A stretch of DNA of 64,000 bases, from NCBI GenBank assembly GCA_001829315.1, contig MIAY01000001.1, forward strand, positions 572,927-636,926, given 5' to 3'. A model generated the notes under the pieces. It was not told where the DNA came from and did no database searches. It saw only the letters and a list, made by a program, of their open reading frames with translations. Both the position numbers and the translations under genes were made by a program. Of this stretch, positions 9,348-46,314 are shown piece by piece. The first letter of the stretch is position 1, and each line of letters opens with the position of its first letter. The DNA is from Spirochaetes bacterium GWE1_32_154. GTDB lineage: Bacteria; Spirochaetota; GWE2-31-10.

Positions 9348-12110
9348 TTATTCTTTACAATATTTTATTATTCCGATAATAAAATCAAATTCTCCGTCAT
9401 CTTCAGATATTAATGAACTTTTAATAGATTTTTCTATCTCAGCTACGGTTGTCTCATTAATTGAATAATCAGTACGAAGATTTGAAAACTCGAGATTCTT
9501 TGTTGTTTTAATCCCGGTTGATGTTTTGTAGATAACAAACAAACCGTCAGTTTGTCCAAAAAGAGAAGTGTAAATTGGCCTTTTAAAATTTGAAATTGAT
9601 AATTTTAATGTTTCTTCGGATATGTTTAAAAATTTAATAAATTCACGCAAGGTTATATCTTCTTTTGATAACGATGGTGTAAATTTTGATTTAATTTCGT
9701 CAGTATTTTTTTTTGCAAAAAAATCTTTATATTCTTTCGTTAATAAATAAAAATCTCCTGTATGACTTTCTGATATTTCGTTAATATGTTTTTCATCGAG
9801 TGACCAGAGAATAAAATCAATACCATAATATGCAATCAATTCATGTAAAGGAATTTTTAATGTTTCAAATAGTAAAATTTCTTTGTCTATTCTTCTGTCA
9901 GATTGAAAGTTATATATTTTAGTTTTGTTGCTATTTGGTTGAGCTGAAGCAATACGGTTTCTTTTACTCAGGGACGATGGATTAATTGGCATGTCAAAGT
10001 TTATAATAACTTTTGCTCGGGGTAATTTAATTTCTTCAGCAATAGAATCATTAGTAATTAATATATTATATAATCCCTGTTCAAATTCACTGCAAATTTC
10101 TTCAATAGCGGTATTGTCCCGTGTTAAAATATCGTCCCCATCTATGCCGGTCGTTTCACCGGAAATAGTTGCAGATTTTAAATTTCCATATTCAATCAAT
10201 CTTCGTTTTAAATAAGCTATTGTATCATCTGATTCAGAAAATATAACGGTTGGTTTGCTTTCTGTATTAAGAATTTTTAAGAGATTTGTTACTTTTTCAT
10301 CACGGTTTTCAAGATATTTTATTGATTGAGATGATAATAATAAATTATTTAATATTGAAATATCAGAATTTAATCCATCTATTATTAATTTTTTTTGCTC
10401 ATCATTCGCTTGTTCAAAAGAATTTTTTATGTTGATAATCTGATCTTCAGTAAAAAAATGAATAATATTATTAATGTGAGAGTCGTCTGAAATTAATTGT
10501 AGTGTAATTTCTGTTTTTATTATTAATTTTTTTAGTGATTCGGTAAATGCCACGAGGCTTGATTCAATTGTCCGGCATAAACGCCACTTGTACCAGTTTG
10601 TAAGATTTTCATCTTCATGATATCCGTTAAATTTTAGTTTGCAATATTCAAATTTGAAATCAGAAATTGCAGGTATAAGTTTTTCGTATATTTTCATTGA
10701 TATATCATGGTCGTAGGCATATTTTACTGTTGTAATAGATGGTTTGTTTAAGTCCTGTTGTAGCGGATCAACAATAGAATCTAAATTTGTCCACTCAATT
10801 TTAACCATAAACGTATTGAGTATCTTTTTTATTGACTCAATTGTTTTATTTGATATATTCTTTTTTTCAATATCATCAATAAGATTATTTACTTCATTAT
10901 CAACCCCATCACTTTTTAATATTTTTTTGTATTTTCCGCGGGAAAACATATTGTATATTGTGATTAAGTCATAAAGAGAATCATTGATGATATTTTTTGA
11001 AATCATAAGAATATGTGCGTCAGGGTTATTTAATAAAATAGTTTCAATATGTTTTTGTCTATTATTTCTTTCTTTTGAAATACTGAAATACTCAGCGTTA
11101 TCGATAATTATGAGATCAATATCAGAAATACTTTCTGATGAGAATGAGTTTTGTTGAAGTTCTGATCGATTAATAAAGCGTGCAAATGATTTTTTTAATC
11201 CCGTTTTAATAAAATTTTGTTCCCAAGTCTGTTCGCTTTCTTTTGAACAAATAACAAGAGATTTTTTGTTTTTTTCAAAATAAAATTTGATAATCATACT
11301 TGAAATATATAATTCACTAAGTCCGATTGAATTTGCAAATATTACACTGCCGTATTTTTGCATTTTCTCAATACATGAATAATAACCCATATTTTTATAT
11401 TCTGCTATTTGTGATAAATCTGTACTTATATTTTTTACAAGATAATCTTTCGAAATACTTTTTAAAATAACTGCAATAAAATTTCTTGGATTAAGATTTA
11501 TTACTTCTGCATTTGCGAATATTTTTAAATAGTTAATAATTCTCAAATTGTTTATTCGGGGGTCAGATAAATTCCATAATTTTTTAAAAAGTAAAAAATG
11601 GATTGATTTTTTACTTTGAGGTGTTAAAACCGGCGTTAGAAAATTAATTGAATTAAAAAAATGGTTGTCTGGTGAGAAACTTGTGTTCCCGGTAAAAGAA
11701 TAGTAATTATTATTATATTTTATTAAATACAATAATGTATTTATATTATCTTTATAATTAACTCTAAATCGCAGAACACCTGAGTTATTTAACAGGTTTA
11801 AAATAAAAAAATCATTTTTATCTAAACTTATAGCATCACTTTTTAATTTGAAAAGAAATTCTTTAGGATTTACCGCTGTACGTGATGAAATTATTATTGA
11901 AAATTGGCTAAGTAAATCTTTGTCAAATAACTTTTTTAATAATGGCAGAATTTTTATTAGGGAATCAAAAAACCTGAAATCTGCAACCATATACAATGAA
12001 ATTGGCTTGTTTTCAGTAAAAGATAAATTCAGATATTTTTCAATAATTTCAAGAGTCGTCTTTTCATTTTTAACGACACCGCATTTATTGTCTATCAAAA
12101 AATTTAACAT
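9348..12110 (-). CDS. Degenerate SNF2/RapA-like helicase with PLD-like N-terminal domain (predicted ATPase-inactive)
   Basis: The 920-aa protein follows the order of PLD-SNF2 helicases but the catalytic positions have changed. Residues 1-150 resemble a phospholipase D-like fold (GNTSFSPDNH at 141-150 in place of the GSSNLT segment) with no HxK motif before it. Residues about 250-400 match the first RecA domain. Walker A is VIFANSIGLSEL (256-267) instead of LADEVGLGKT, and Walker B is LIIIDNAE (333-340) instead of DEAH. Residues 618-735 match the second RecA domain (ILITNDSIAEEIKLP, then VIINFDMPINPSSL). Its motif VI is KRNRIASAQPNSNK, lacking the paired arginines. ATP hydrolysis is therefore unlikely, and a structural DNA-binding role is inferred. 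The SD is AAGGGG. It converges with the preceding operon. Confidence 0.7.
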   Translation of the reverse strand: MLNFLIDNKCGVVKNEKTTLEIIEKYLNLSFTENKPISLYMVADFRFFDSLIKILPLLKKLFDKDLLSQFSIIISSRTAVNPKEFLFKLKSDAISLDKNDFFILNLLNNSGVLRFRVNYKDNINTLLYLIKYNNNYYSFTGNTSFSPDNHFFNSINFLTPVLTPQSKKSIHFLLFKKLWNLSDPRINNLRIINYLKIFANAEVINLNPRNFIAVILKSISKDYLVKNISTDLSQIAEYKNMGYYSCIEKMQKYGSVIFANSIGLSELYISSMIIKFYFEKNKKSLVICSKESEQTWEQNFIKTGLKKSFARFINRSELQQNSFSSESISDIDLIIIDNAEYFSISKERNNRQKHIETILLNNPDAHILMISKNIINDSLYDLITIYNMFSRGKYKKILKSDGVDNEVNNLIDDIEKKNISNKTIESIKKILNTFMVKIEWTNLDSIVDPLQQDLNKPSITTVKYAYDHDISMKIYEKLIPAISDFKFEYCKLKFNGYHEDENLTNWYKWRLCRTIESSLVAFTESLKKLIIKTEITLQLISDDSHINNIIHFFTEDQIINIKNSFEQANDEQKKLIIDGLNSDISILNNLLLSSQSIKYLENRDEKVTNLLKILNTESKPTVIFSESDDTIAYLKRRLIEYGNLKSATISGETTGIDGDDILTRDNTAIEEICSEFEQGLYNILITNDSIAEEIKLPRAKVIINFDMPINPSSLSKRNRIASAQPNSNKTKIYNFQSDRRIDKEILLFETLKIPLHELIAYYGIDFILWSLDEKHINEISESHTGDFYLLTKEYKDFFAKKNTDEIKSKFTPSLSKEDITLREFIKFLNISEETLKLSISNFKRPIYTSLFGQTDGLFVIYKTSTGIKTTKNLEFSNLRTDYSINETTVAEIEKSIKSSLISEDDGEFDFIIGIIKYCKE

Positions 12111-12199
12111 TTTTACCCCTTATTTTTATAACTTTTTTCCATTATAAACAATTTATCAGATAATACATAGTCTTAAATAAAAAATAGAGGCCAGACGCT

Positions 12200-13423
12200 T
12201 TATTTTGCATGTACCATCATATCAGTAAACACCAAAGCATCAGTGATGCAATTTTTTATTGATGAATTTTCATTTGGTCCATGCAGTGTTTCGTTTAATG
12301 TTGACCACAATGTAGCATGAATACCACGCATTCTAAAATATGCAGCAACTGTACCTCCACCTATTCCATACGTTTTAGCTTTTTTATGTAGAACTCTTTC
12401 AATTGAATTCATAAGAAGTTGAACGATCGGTGCTTCATCAGGAGTCGGGGCAGGTGACTGAACCTTTTGCCCGATTTTCAAGGAAATAGTTGTTCCTGTT
12501 TCCTTTTCAATCCCTTTCACAATATGATCAACTTTTGAAAGAATATCATCAAGCTGATAGCAGGGTAATATTCTACAGTCATAGCAAAGAATTTCACTTC
12601 CTGGAATTGTATTGTAATTAGTTACGGAGCCGATTCGTTTTGTAGGTTCGAATGTTGATGTTTTTGTATCAAACTTTGCATCCTGAGCATTGAATATGTC
12701 ATATAATGTACTGAGGCTGATATCAAGTTTTGAAGATGCCCGTGCTGCATTAATGCCAAGATCGGGTCTTGAACCATGAGACTGTTTTCCGGTTATTGTG
12801 AATTCAAGCCATAAAATAGATTTTTCGGCAACTTCAATAAAGTCACCATTCGGGTCGCCCACATCAGGAGTTAAAATTAAATCATCTTTTTTAAATAACT
12901 GAGTATTTTCTAAAAGATACATAATTCCGTATTCACTACCCATTTCTTCATCGGCCACAAATAATAATTTAATATTAATATCAGGTTTTACTTTTTTCTC
13001 AAGCATTGCTTTTGCTGCAATAAGCGATGAAACTAAGCCTTGTTGATTATCTTCGGTTCCTCTTCCATAAATTAAATCATCTTTTACGACAACTTTAAAT
13101 GGATCAGTATCCCATAATCCGATGTCTCCCGGAGGAACGACATCAAGATGCGAGATTATCCATAAATTTTTAGACGTGTTTTTTCCTTCAATTGTTGCAA
13201 TAAGTGAAGGTCTTTTACCTGAACTGACTCTATTATCAGGAGCCATTATTTCTTCGATTGAATCAAAACCCCATTGACTGATTTCTGATTTTAAAGCCAT
13301 GGCTTTTTTGAATTCTCCGTCACCGCCATTTTCAGGCCCGACAGCAGGGTTTTCTGTTAAAATTGTTTGCAATCTGATTATTAATTCCCGTGAATCATTG
13401 ATAAAGTCAGTTAGTTCTTTCAT
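12200..13423 (-). CDS. M20-family metallopeptidase / metallohydrolase
   Basis: The 407-aa enzyme belongs to the di-zinc M20 family (DapE, ArgE, PepV relatives) that hydrolyses N-acyl or peptide bonds. The motifs are HLDVVPPG near 93, GRGTEDNQQG near 121, the catalytic Glu pair in VADEEMGSEYG near 156, a dimerisation domain after SHGSRPD, and a C-terminal metal-binding His in NETLHGPNENS. The family is well supported. Substrate specificity is not visible; a general dipeptidase or acyl-aminoacid hydrolase role is likely. It follows alaS with a 2-nt gap and is probably co-transcribed with it. Confidence 0.85.
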   Translation of the reverse strand: MKELTDFINDSRELIIRLQTILTENPAVGPENGGDGEFKKAMALKSEISQWGFDSIEEIMAPDNRVSSGKRPSLIATIEGKNTSKNLWIISHLDVVPPGDIGLWDTDPFKVVVKDDLIYGRGTEDNQQGLVSSLIAAKAMLEKKVKPDINIKLLFVADEEMGSEYGIMYLLENTQLFKKDDLILTPDVGDPNGDFIEVAEKSILWLEFTITGKQSHGSRPDLGINAARASSKLDISLSTLYDIFNAQDAKFDTKTSTFEPTKRIGSVTNYNTIPGSEILCYDCRILPCYQLDDILSKVDHIVKGIEKETGTTISLKIGQKVQSPAPTPDEAPIVQLLMNSIERVLHKKAKTYGIGGGTVAAYFRMRGIHATLWSTLNETLHGPNENSSIKNCITDALVFTDMMVHAK

Positions 13424-42891: not shown

Positions 42892-45800
42892 TTATTTTTT
42901 TATTATATCAGTCATTTGAATTTTTTCACCTTTGGTAACCTCCATAATTCGACCTCTGCCAAATAGTGAATATCCTGAAGTATAGGTGATTTTAATCTTA
43001 GCAATTTCTTTTTCAGTACCACCGGACATTCTTACAACTTTTACCATATCACCTACTGACAGATCTTTAATCATCGATTCTGATAAAAATTGGAATGTAA
43101 CAGAACTGTCAATAGATTCAATAACCCGGGCAGATATTTTATTCTGGTTTGATGTTAATTCAACAGGACCTGATGGTGATTTAGGTGTCGAATCAATTCC
43201 TGATGTGTCTTTTAATTTGTTTATTTCATTAGAAAATTCATCCTGAAGTCTTTCTTTTTCTAATTCAACAGTTTTTTCATAATCTTTTTTAATTTCTTCG
43301 GTAATTTGTCTTCGTAATTCATTTTCATTTAATCTTGATTTAGCAGATTGCTGTTCAAGTTTTGTATATTTATCTTTAATATCTTTAAGCTCTGTCGATA
43401 TTTTTTCATTGGCTGTTTTAACCATTTCTTCTGAATTCTGTTTAACTTCTTCATTTTTTTTATATGAATCAAGTAATTGATTTTGTAAACTTTGAATGTA
43501 TTTTTTTCCGTCTTCAATTTCTTTTTCTTTATTAGCATACTCTTTTTTGAGATTTTCAAGTTCATCACCTGTTGATGATTTTGAATCCTCTAAATTTTTC
43601 TTAAGTTCTTCAAGTTCCTTATTTTTTTCTGCAAGTTTTGTTTCATATTCTGTTTTGAGACTCTCTAATTCTTTTTGATCAACTTGAGGTTTTGCATTTT
43701 TAAGATCTGCAATAATTGCGTCTTTTTCAGCTAGTCTTTGATCGAATTCTCTAGTAATTGAAGCAATTTGAGTTGTGTCATTTGTAGTAGCATCTAATTT
43801 TTCGTTGTATTGTTTTATTAATTCATCCCGTTCTAATTTACTTCTATTGATTTCTTCTGCGAGTTTTGCATTAAATTCATCTTCTTTTGTTTGTATCATC
43901 TCACTATATTTTTTTTCAATTGATGCTTTAGCTTCTTCAAGTAATTTTTCTGATAAAACTGAAGTATCGCTTGAAGAAGATTTTAATAGAGATTGAATAT
44001 ATTCATTTTCTACAGATATAAAATCATTTACCGATTCATTTGCATAAAGATTGAAAGCGGTATTTAACGCTGCAAAATAGAAATTTCTGGCAGCTGATAA
44101 ATCACCTGCTTTATATGAGTCAGTAAAATTTTTATAATTCTGATTAAATCTGCTTCGCAATCGGTCTTCAAACTGTGCAAGTTCTCTTGATTGCAAAATC
44201 TCACGGATATTTATTGATTCATCAAGTGATTTTTTTGTCAAACCCGATTGCGGATACTGTATGATGACTTTCTCAAATTCAGCAAGAGCTTCTCTATATC
44301 GGCTGTTTTTTTGAAGAGAAATTGCGTTTTCGTATATTAATGTAGCTTGAGCTTCAATTTGCTTTGTTTTGCCTGACTCATTCAAAAGTAAAGAAAGTTT
44401 TGTGATATTATCAAGTGCTTGAATTGTATAATCACTATTTGGAGATTCTTTAATAACCTGTGTTAATAAAACAAGTGCATTTTCATAATTTCCGGCACGG
44501 AGATTTGAAATTGCATCGTTATATGAATTAAGTGCCCGTGCATTTTGAATTTCTTTTTCAATACTCGAAATTCGTAGGTATGAACTGTTTACGTTATCAA
44601 ATTCTTTAAGTACTTTACCGTATTTTTGCATAGCGTCAGGAAATTTTTTACTCGCATAAGATTCTTCCGCACTATTGTAAAGCTCATTCATTGTTTTAAA
44701 TTTATTCAGTGTTTTGATAAATTCTGCATCATAATAAACAGAATTCTGGCTTGCCTTAACAAGACTGCTGATTGTATTAATCATAAAGATGTCAGTTGTC
44801 ATTCTATCGCGTAAAGAAGGTTCATTAAGTACAAATGATTTTTGCGAATCATAGAATTGAATTACCATATTGAGTTTGGTAATTCCTTCTGAATTGTTAT
44901 TCTTCTTAAAATCTTCAATAGAGGATGAAACTAACTGAAAAATCTTTGAATTAAAATCTTTAATTTTATCATTATACAAACGTAATTCATCAAGTCTTTT
45001 TGTGACTTCATCCCGTTCTTTGTTTTTTTCTTCAAGTCTTTGTGACAGGTTATCACGAATTTTTTGTAATTCAAAATCTTTATTTTCTATGGCGGATTGA
45101 ATCTGGTTTTTTGCCTGTTCGATTTCTTTGTTCTTTTGAACAAGAATTTTATCCTGTTCTGATAGTTTCGTTGTTTTTTCAGATTCAGCACGAGCTAACG
45201 CGGTTGCTTTTTCTATATCAAGCAATTTTTTAAATTTTAAAAACTCAGATTGAGGTAAAGATTGAGCAATTAAATCCTGAAGTTTTTTTCGATAGATATT
45301 TTCAATTTCAATTCTTCTTTTGTTAAGTTCCTCATTGATTGATGCTTCAATTTTATCTCTTTCGGTGCTTACTTTTCTTAGTTCTTCTTCTAAAACCATT
45401 TTCATCTTTTTTGCTTCTTCTTCTTTTTGTTTTGCAATTCTCGATAAAATTGAGGTGTCAGTTTTCAAGTTTTCATCAAGTGATGAAACCGATGCTTTTT
45501 TAAAGTATGAAGACATTATTGGAATGCTTATTAATAATAATAGTACAGGAATTATCGCAGCGAAAAAAGGTGCCGTAATTCCCGTACTGATATTTTTATT
45601 CAGTGATAAACTTAATGTTTTTTTTGCACGCTTGTTATAAATCTGCTTATCAATATTATAGTAAATTTCAGCTTTATTAACACCGAATACATCAATATCA
45701 TGGGTATTTTCTGTATCAATCTCAGTATCTAATTCTTTATTTCGTAACGTATCATCAATCGAATTGATATCAATTAATCCGGGGTTTTCAACAAATTCAT

Positions 45801-46314
45801 TTGTTTTGTTGATTTTAGTAAGTAAATACGAAACGTCGTCAATTTCTTCTGATAAATCTTCGGTAATATCACTAACTTCAATTGTATTTTCAGCAATTTC
45901 TTCTGCGTGATGATTTTCTTGTTTTTTAACAGGAATCGAAATGGACCTGCCAGCGGTAATTGGTTCTGTTTTAGCTGTATTTTCTTCTTGTTTTATTGTA
46001 GTTTCTTTCTTTGTGAGATCATATAAAATATAATCCACTTCATTATGAGCTGTATATGTAATGTTATCAATTTCACTTTTATTCTTTAATAATTCGTAGT
46101 TATTATTTGTTGATGTTTCTTCTAAATCTTTAAAATATGTTGAGTACGTTGAATTAATAGCAGGAAAATCTGTTGTTTGATCTATTAAGTCCGAGAAATT
46201 AATTAAATCACTTACTTCAGTTGAATTAGTCTGAAAATAATCATTTATCGATTTAAGGTTAATTCCTTTAGAAACAGGTAAGTTAGTAAAATTATCGTTA
46301 TCGTTATTATTCAT
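42892..46314 (-). CDS. Large membrane-anchored coiled-coil/TPR protein
   Basis: The 1140-aa protein has an acidic, low-complexity N-terminal part (1-235), one transmembrane helix (about 246-268), a long coiled coil (about 285-460), TPR-like repeats (about 560-760, with NYENALVLLTQVIKESPNS and RYREALAEFEKVIIQYPQS), a second long coiled coil (about 800-1040), and a C-terminal beta domain (about 1065-1140). It lacks a signal peptide, so it probably spans the inner membrane with the coiled coils in the periplasm (inference). It resembles structural or scaffold proteins of spirochaetes but is not recognised. GGGA lies before the ATG. It follows the PEGA/TPR gene by 36 nt. Confidence 0.65.
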   Translation of the reverse strand: MNNNDNDNFTNLPVSKGINLKSINDYFQTNSTEVSDLINFSDLIDQTTDFPAINSTYSTYFKDLEETSTNNNYELLKNKSEIDNITYTAHNEVDYILYDLTKKETTIKQEENTAKTEPITAGRSISIPVKKQENHHAEEIAENTIEVSDITEDLSEEIDDVSYLLTKINKTNEFVENPGLIDINSIDDTLRNKELDTEIDTENTHDIDVFGVNKAEIYYNIDKQIYNKRAKKTLSLSLNKNISTGITAPFFAAIIPVLLLLISIPIMSSYFKKASVSSLDENLKTDTSILSRIAKQKEEEAKKMKMVLEEELRKVSTERDKIEASINEELNKRRIEIENIYRKKLQDLIAQSLPQSEFLKFKKLLDIEKATALARAESEKTTKLSEQDKILVQKNKEIEQAKNQIQSAIENKDFELQKIRDNLSQRLEEKNKERDEVTKRLDELRLYNDKIKDFNSKIFQLVSSSIEDFKKNNNSEGITKLNMVIQFYDSQKSFVLNEPSLRDRMTTDIFMINTISSLVKASQNSVYYDAEFIKTLNKFKTMNELYNSAEESYASKKFPDAMQKYGKVLKEFDNVNSSYLRISSIEKEIQNARALNSYNDAISNLRAGNYENALVLLTQVIKESPNSDYTIQALDNITKLSLLLNESGKTKQIEAQATLIYENAISLQKNSRYREALAEFEKVIIQYPQSGLTKKSLDESINIREILQSRELAQFEDRLRSRFNQNYKNFTDSYKAGDLSAARNFYFAALNTAFNLYANESVNDFISVENEYIQSLLKSSSSDTSVLSEKLLEEAKASIEKKYSEMIQTKEDEFNAKLAEEINRSKLERDELIKQYNEKLDATTNDTTQIASITREFDQRLAEKDAIIADLKNAKPQVDQKELESLKTEYETKLAEKNKELEELKKNLEDSKSSTGDELENLKKEYANKEKEIEDGKKYIQSLQNQLLDSYKKNEEVKQNSEEMVKTANEKISTELKDIKDKYTKLEQQSAKSRLNENELRRQITEEIKKDYEKTVELEKERLQDEFSNEINKLKDTSGIDSTPKSPSGPVELTSNQNKISARVIESIDSSVTFQFLSESMIKDLSVGDMVKVVRMSGGTEKEIAKIKITYTSGYSLFGRGRIMEVTKGEKIQMTDIIKK

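Follow-up and report, generated by a model that had tools for sequence, protein, structure and literature searches.

The closest described relatives of the protein analyzed here are archaeal PLD-SNF2 helicases such as METOK_RS08260, encoded on plasmid pMETOK01 of Methanothermococcus okinawensis, and proteins from Aenigmatarchaeota and Nanoarchaeota MAGs. These helicases have the same domain order as the protein analyzed here, belong to its sister clade, possess all helicase and PLD motifs, and usually have a methyltransferase neighbor; our protein has neither the motifs nor the neighbor, and is ~90 residues shorter in its C-terminal region. A related helicase core occurs in PADLOC C3a139 (HKD+Snf2), NF042964, and DISARM DrmD, which are among the top-scoring named profiles for the family; a SNF2-type two-lobed core is shared with RapA, which lacks a PLD domain; and a similar N-terminal fold, recognized by a weak structural match (E 0.006–0.01), occurs in the PLD restriction enzymes SauUSI, BfiI, and NgoAVII, all of which are active enzymes (according to its description, SauUSI is an ATP-dependent restriction endonuclease). 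A literature search on SNF2-PLD helicases found nothing specific.

We analyzed a 64,000-nucleotide stretch of DNA (the window) from the 4.0 Mb genome of Spirochaetes bacterium GWE1_32_154 (Spirochaetota; G000). The gene of interest, the domains of its product, and its neighbors are:

9348–12110, minus strand: pseudohelicase gene; 920 aa, ATG start, ORF intact; orthologues in genomes G001, G002, G003, and G006
12116–12120, minus strand: Shine-Dalgarno-like AGGGG just 5' of the ATG, read from the sequence
11541–12110, minus strand: PLD-like N-terminal domain, residues 1–190, aligned to the PLD domain of active relatives; active-site residues replaced
10911–11420, minus strand: RecA-like lobe 1, residues 231–400
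9831–10310, minus strand: RecA-like lobe 2, residues 601–760; Pfam Helicase_C; by domain identities, the best-conserved lobe within the dead clade
9351–9830, minus strand: C-terminal domain, residues 761–920; constraint relatively higher than in active relatives
12200–13423, minus strand: M20-family peptidase gene (Pfam), upstream neighbor; adjoins the pseudohelicase gene also at loci L017, L019, and L022
13426–15222, minus strand: alaS, upstream of the M20 gene on the same strand; conserved at L017 and L019
8488–9324, plus strand: g8488, convergent downstream gene; beside the pseudohelicase gene also in G001 (48% identity; L018/L097)

The first-pass annotation of this DNA had described a frame intact over 920 codons and a two-RecA layout with a PLD-like N-terminus, and the ORF is indeed uninterrupted from its ATG, with both RecA lobes, the PLD-like part, and a C-terminal domain present. 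The sole Pfam match of the window protein is Helicase_C (PF00271; residues 606–716; above the gathering score); the SNF2-rel_dom and DEAD models do not match it, and lobe 1 matches no Pfam ATPase model. A full-length structural model predicted from seven sequences (pLDDT 71; pTM 0.57) is SF2/SNF2-like and matches ISWI, RapA, Chd1, and MDA5, with low global TM-scores that make domain placement uncertain; in the comparison with RapA that had been proposed as a check, Foldseek matched 6bog (RapA) with E 1e-11. A model of residues 1–235 weakly matches BfiI, SauUSI, the NgoAVII R-protein, and polyphosphate kinase (E 0.006–0.01), mostly members of the PLD superfamily. Assignment to a named family by profile failed in each case: the window protein scores 35.7 bits against an NCBIfam cut-off of 1100 for NF042964 (a PLD anti-phage protein) and 29.4 bits against an NCBIfam equivalog cut-off of 610 for DISARM DrmD, with no DISARM partners seen, and the RapA equivalog is absent among its matches up to E 10. 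RapA, named in the original reading, is not the nearest kin of the window protein; PLD-SNF2 helicases paired with DNA methyltransferases are.

Alignment with active relatives places the former catalytic motifs as follows:

11727–11741, minus strand: former HxK motif of the PLD domain, NTLLY, residues 124–128 (NTL replaces HxK)
11673–11690, minus strand: former GSANLT motif of the PLD domain, GNTSFS, residues 141–146 (GNTS vs. GSAN)
11310–11330, minus strand: former Walker A (motif I), SIGLSEL, residues 261–267 (SxGLGKT in active relatives)
11085–11102, minus strand: former Walker B (motif II), DNAEYF, residues 337–342 (DEAHHF in active relatives)
10983–11003, minus strand: former motif III, ISKNIIN, residues 370–376 (ITATPIN in active relatives)
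10032–10055, minus strand: former motif V, TNDSIAEE, residues 686–693 (TTDxxxEG in active relatives)
9939–9965, minus strand: former motif VI, KRNRIASAQ, residues 716–724 (QRxGRAIRI in active relatives)

An active PLD-SNF2 helicase has intact Walker A, Walker B, and motifs III, V, and VI, together with an intact PLD HxK and GSxN; in the window protein, none of these is intact. The initial readings of GLSEL in place of GLGKT, and of a PLD part without HxK, agree with the alignment. Two others require amendment: Walker B, read as DNAE for DEAH, is degenerate, but its first Asp (D337) is retained; and motif VI, said to lack both Arg residues, has lost the GRxxR arginines, but keeps R717, the Arg of 'QR', which is invariant across the whole clade. 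Judged by sequence, the window protein is a pseudohelicase, that is, a protein that has a helicase fold, has replacements of key ATPase residues, and is conserved across its clade; both its ATPase site and its DNA-cutting site are lost, and it would carry out no catalysis.

The homology of the window protein to active PLD-SNF2 helicases extends over the whole length (PLD domain, two RecA lobes, and C-terminal domain), with 34–35% identity to L020 and L021. The closest relatives with intact motifs are encoded in DPANN archaeal MAGs (L020, L021), in one more genome of an archaeon (L073), and on plasmids of the archaea Methanothermococcus okinawensis, Natronococcus, and Haladaptatus. Full-length relatives found in a search of plasmids are archaeal, with motifs intact wherever read, and a search of viral contigs found no relatives. 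The archaeal affinity is thus not a matter of MAGs alone, as the plasmids were sequenced from isolates. The helicase motifs are intact in all of ~35 other aligned PLD/SNF2 helicases, including the sister clade from DPANN archaea and archaeal plasmids. In a tree of 40 proteins, which is midpoint-rooted and includes several rows with unusual composition, the five dead proteins form one clade (100/100) that is sister to DPANN-type proteins (100/99) and is nested inside an archaeal group, among archaeal plasmid proteins. The first-pass annotation had held that relatives with canonical GKT and DEAH would count against loss of catalysis; archaeal proteins of ~35% identity literally have both, but these constitute the active sister clade and show the source of the protein. 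The window protein either descends from the PLD-SNF2 family or is sister to it. We read it as deriving from a restriction-type helicase that was probably acquired from archaea, with transfer that would have run from archaea to spirochaetes.

A DNA methyltransferase gene immediately adjoins the active relative at L021 (an Eco57I-type enzyme), L069, L070, and L100, and lies two genes away from it at L068; the L020 locus is cut by a contig end. The pseudohelicase gene has no DNA methyltransferase partner among the window neighbors checked, and a query for the cognate methyltransferase in spirochaetes gave, in genomes of the order, partial, generic matches only (best E 2e-13, in G000). One archaeal relative with active motifs (L099, 7917–10931, in G570) also has no methyltransferase neighbor and lies beside a glutamine synthetase-like gene; it could represent an early stage of separation from the methyltransferase partner. 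Separately, genome G007, which has no pseudohelicase, encodes a 1112-aa SNF2-like helicase beside a 1174-aa methyltransferase-like ORF (C105, 11076–15237), likely an active restriction or DISARM-like pair.

In four of the five genomes that contain it (G000, G002, G003, and G006), the pseudohelicase gene lies directly behind the M20 gene, and in the fifth (G001) the g8488 side is kept; alaS precedes the M20 gene in G000, G002, and G003. In G004, G005, G007, and G008, the M20 gene has different neighbors. Because G006 belongs to a different family from G000–G003, arrival of the gene at this locus probably predates the split between the families. Two further observations concern the window itself. 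A short alaS is a known trait of some spirochaetes, and here, as at L017 and L019, the alaS product is short: its 598 aa comprise just the synthetase and SAD domains. A 1140-aa ORF at 42892–46314 (minus strand) has no Pfam match at 1e-5.

All close active relatives resemble restriction-type defence proteins, and the window protein might still act in defence: with no catalysis of its own, it could bind DNA of foreign origin or a protein from a phage, serving as sensor, decoy, or regulator, while another nuclease acts in trans. Activity could come from other SNF2 proteins, of which G000 has at least four, and AddB provides a precedent for a dead helicase domain as a DNA sensor (PMC4824097). We nevertheless regard a role in defence as unlikely: the neighborhood is housekeeping, with no defence island; inheritance is vertical and pN/pS is low (see below), whereas defence genes usually turn over fast; and the search of the order's genomes yielded no cognate methyltransferase.

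Within the order, the gene is present in five of nine genomes, with orthologues 34–44% identical to the window protein, and absent from four; the gene is thus not universally needed, with the caveat that these four genomes are 77–95% complete. Alignment with the four orthologues, a check suggested in the first reading, shows that all are degenerate too, each in its own way, and that none has GKT and DEAH together: G001 has GLSKH and DRAE; G002 and G003 have GISEN and DEAE; and G006, the deepest-branching, has a perfect Walker A (GVGKT) and a lost Walker B (SDIH). Conservation, across an order, of orthologues with similar damage indicates that the motif damage is not due to chance. Walker A has outlived Walker B in the G006 lineage, and in the other family the motif II Asp is kept and the His is lost; from these lineage-specific states, the order of loss being read solely from living members, loss of catalysis looks gradual and partly parallel. 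The G003 orthologue has a frame break in a T run near its 5' end (L003; L019 near 7690), a break that may have arisen in assembly; the gene is intact elsewhere. No further dead copy was found among the matches examined from a phylum-wide profile search (393 genomes) and from a scan of 84,980 species, which relies on short conserved peptides and can overlook distantly related copies; the scan yielded one weak fragment, in Aquimarina, and the single match listed by the phylum-wide search in G000 is the dead gene itself. A second PLD/SNF2-like helicase, apparently of another clade and with intact Walker motifs, lies at a contig end in G002 (C164; L015).

To define conserved positions we used, as reference, positions invariant in four active relatives. 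Motif positions are 41–50% kept in the dead proteins vs. 84–86% in active haloarchaeal homologues at similar distance, and non-motif positions are 46–59% kept vs. 51–57%. A motif-vs-rest test strongly favors motif positions in the active homologues (p 2–3e-4); the corresponding loss test in the dead proteins alone is non-significant or marginal (p 0.05–0.68). Hydrophobic core positions are 79–85% kept in dead vs. 81–82% in active proteins, and Gly/Pro positions are 40–49% kept vs. 83%. The ratio of C-terminal to RecA identity is 0.88–0.95 for dead pairs vs. 0.52–0.63 for active pairs; at 24 positions, the dead clade has an invariant residue that differs from those of all four active relatives. 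The raised C-terminal constraint indicates that selection has shifted from the ATPase core to the C-terminal domain, which is what one would expect of a protein that now works by binding. Conserved charge does not clearly favor DNA binding, and, because net charge is not above that of active relatives, nucleic-acid binding is not positively supported.

The retention of GVGKT suggests that nucleotide binding may persist in G006, and this retention, together with D337 and R717 in the window protein and DEAE as motif II in G002 and G003, would fit a protein that is not dead: one that binds nucleotide through a rebuilt site, or that switches on nucleotide binding without hydrolysis. Such activity is improbable in our assessment, since the window family lacks the Walker A Lys, the motif III Thr-Pro, the GRxxR arginines, and the motif V Gly, and since Gly/Pro positions of the active form have been kept to so small an extent (40–49%).

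The pN/pS of the pseudohelicase gene is 0.128 (one pair, G002 vs. G003, with synonymous sites saturated), a value indicative of purifying selection. Values for control genes in the same pair are 0.137 (M20), 0.067 (alaS), 0.155 (hisC), 0.155 (EamA), and 0.293 (histidine kinase). The dN/dS check that had been suggested, run here as pN/pS on this pair, thus gives a value comparable to those of neighboring housekeeping genes. Neutral simulation to the G002–G003 divergence produces at least 19 stops per gene (mean about 35). Although motif erosion that differs by lineage, the frame break in the G003 orthologue, and branches longer in the dead clade than in the active sister clade might be taken to indicate a pseudogene in slow decay whose frame has yet to break, we give this very little credence, since frames are intact in four lineages merely 35–44% identical, non-motif positions are retained at the rate of active homologues, and pN/pS at the level of housekeeping neighbors, together with the at least 19 stops predicted by neutral simulation, leads us to reject pseudogene drift. 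The proposal that the product is kept for a non-catalytic role is well supported by five orthologues at essentially one locus, by saturated synonymous divergence with pN/pS 0.13, and by normal conservation of non-catalytic positions.

Given the homology, motif loss, ancestry, retained selection, and constraint shift documented above, the explanation that we favor, and consider reasonably probable, is that a restriction-type helicase, probably archaeal, was domesticated into a pseudohelicase that would serve as an ATP-independent binding or scaffold protein. According to this explanation, a PLD-SNF2 restriction-type helicase, of the methyltransferase-adjacent kind found on archaeal plasmids and in DPANN archaea, would have entered the ancestor of the spirochaete order, settled behind the M20 peptidase gene, and lost its methyltransferase partner; loss of the PLD nuclease site and of the ATPase site would have followed, in steps that two families took partly in parallel; and the protein would now most likely act as an ATP-independent clamp or scaffold, in which the RecA core with its two lobes and the C-terminal domain bind a fixed partner (DNA, RNA, or protein), with no translocation and no cutting. 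In broader terms, which we offer tentatively, a bacterial order may have turned a mobile archaeal-type restriction helicase into a fixed, non-enzymatic part of its cells; catalysis would have been lost in parallel in two families once the gene had settled at one locus.

If this is true, the family forms a natural gradation that begins with an active defence enzyme and ends with a protein of structural or regulatory role, in which G006 is an intermediate that keeps only the P-loop; with an active sister clade in a cultured methanogen and a living P-loop intermediate, it is a testable case of reuse of a defence motor after loss of its chemistry. One caution is that, by profile alone, such proteins may be mislabeled as helicases or anti-phage enzymes.

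Few dead helicases retained by cells are known, and none of the cases that we cite has a relationship to restriction-type defence genes, whereas the descent proposed here is from a restriction-type, plasmid-associated enzyme. RecC is a parallel to AddB as a case of a dead helicase domain used as a DNA sensor. Dead helicase folds act as scaffold or sensor in Utp25 and in the AddB domain, but these belong to other families, have no PLD domain, and do not derive from a restriction-type gene: in Utp25 a dead helicase fold has been reused (PMC9539457), and in AddB the helicase-like domain reads Chi (PMC4824097). Deinococcus radiodurans PriA is, like the window protein, a bacterial helicase with eroded motifs that is kept in its lineage; it lacks ATPase and unwinding activity and, by experiment, binds DNA and DnaB (PMC4504706), but it belongs to an unrelated helicase family and derives from a housekeeping enzyme.
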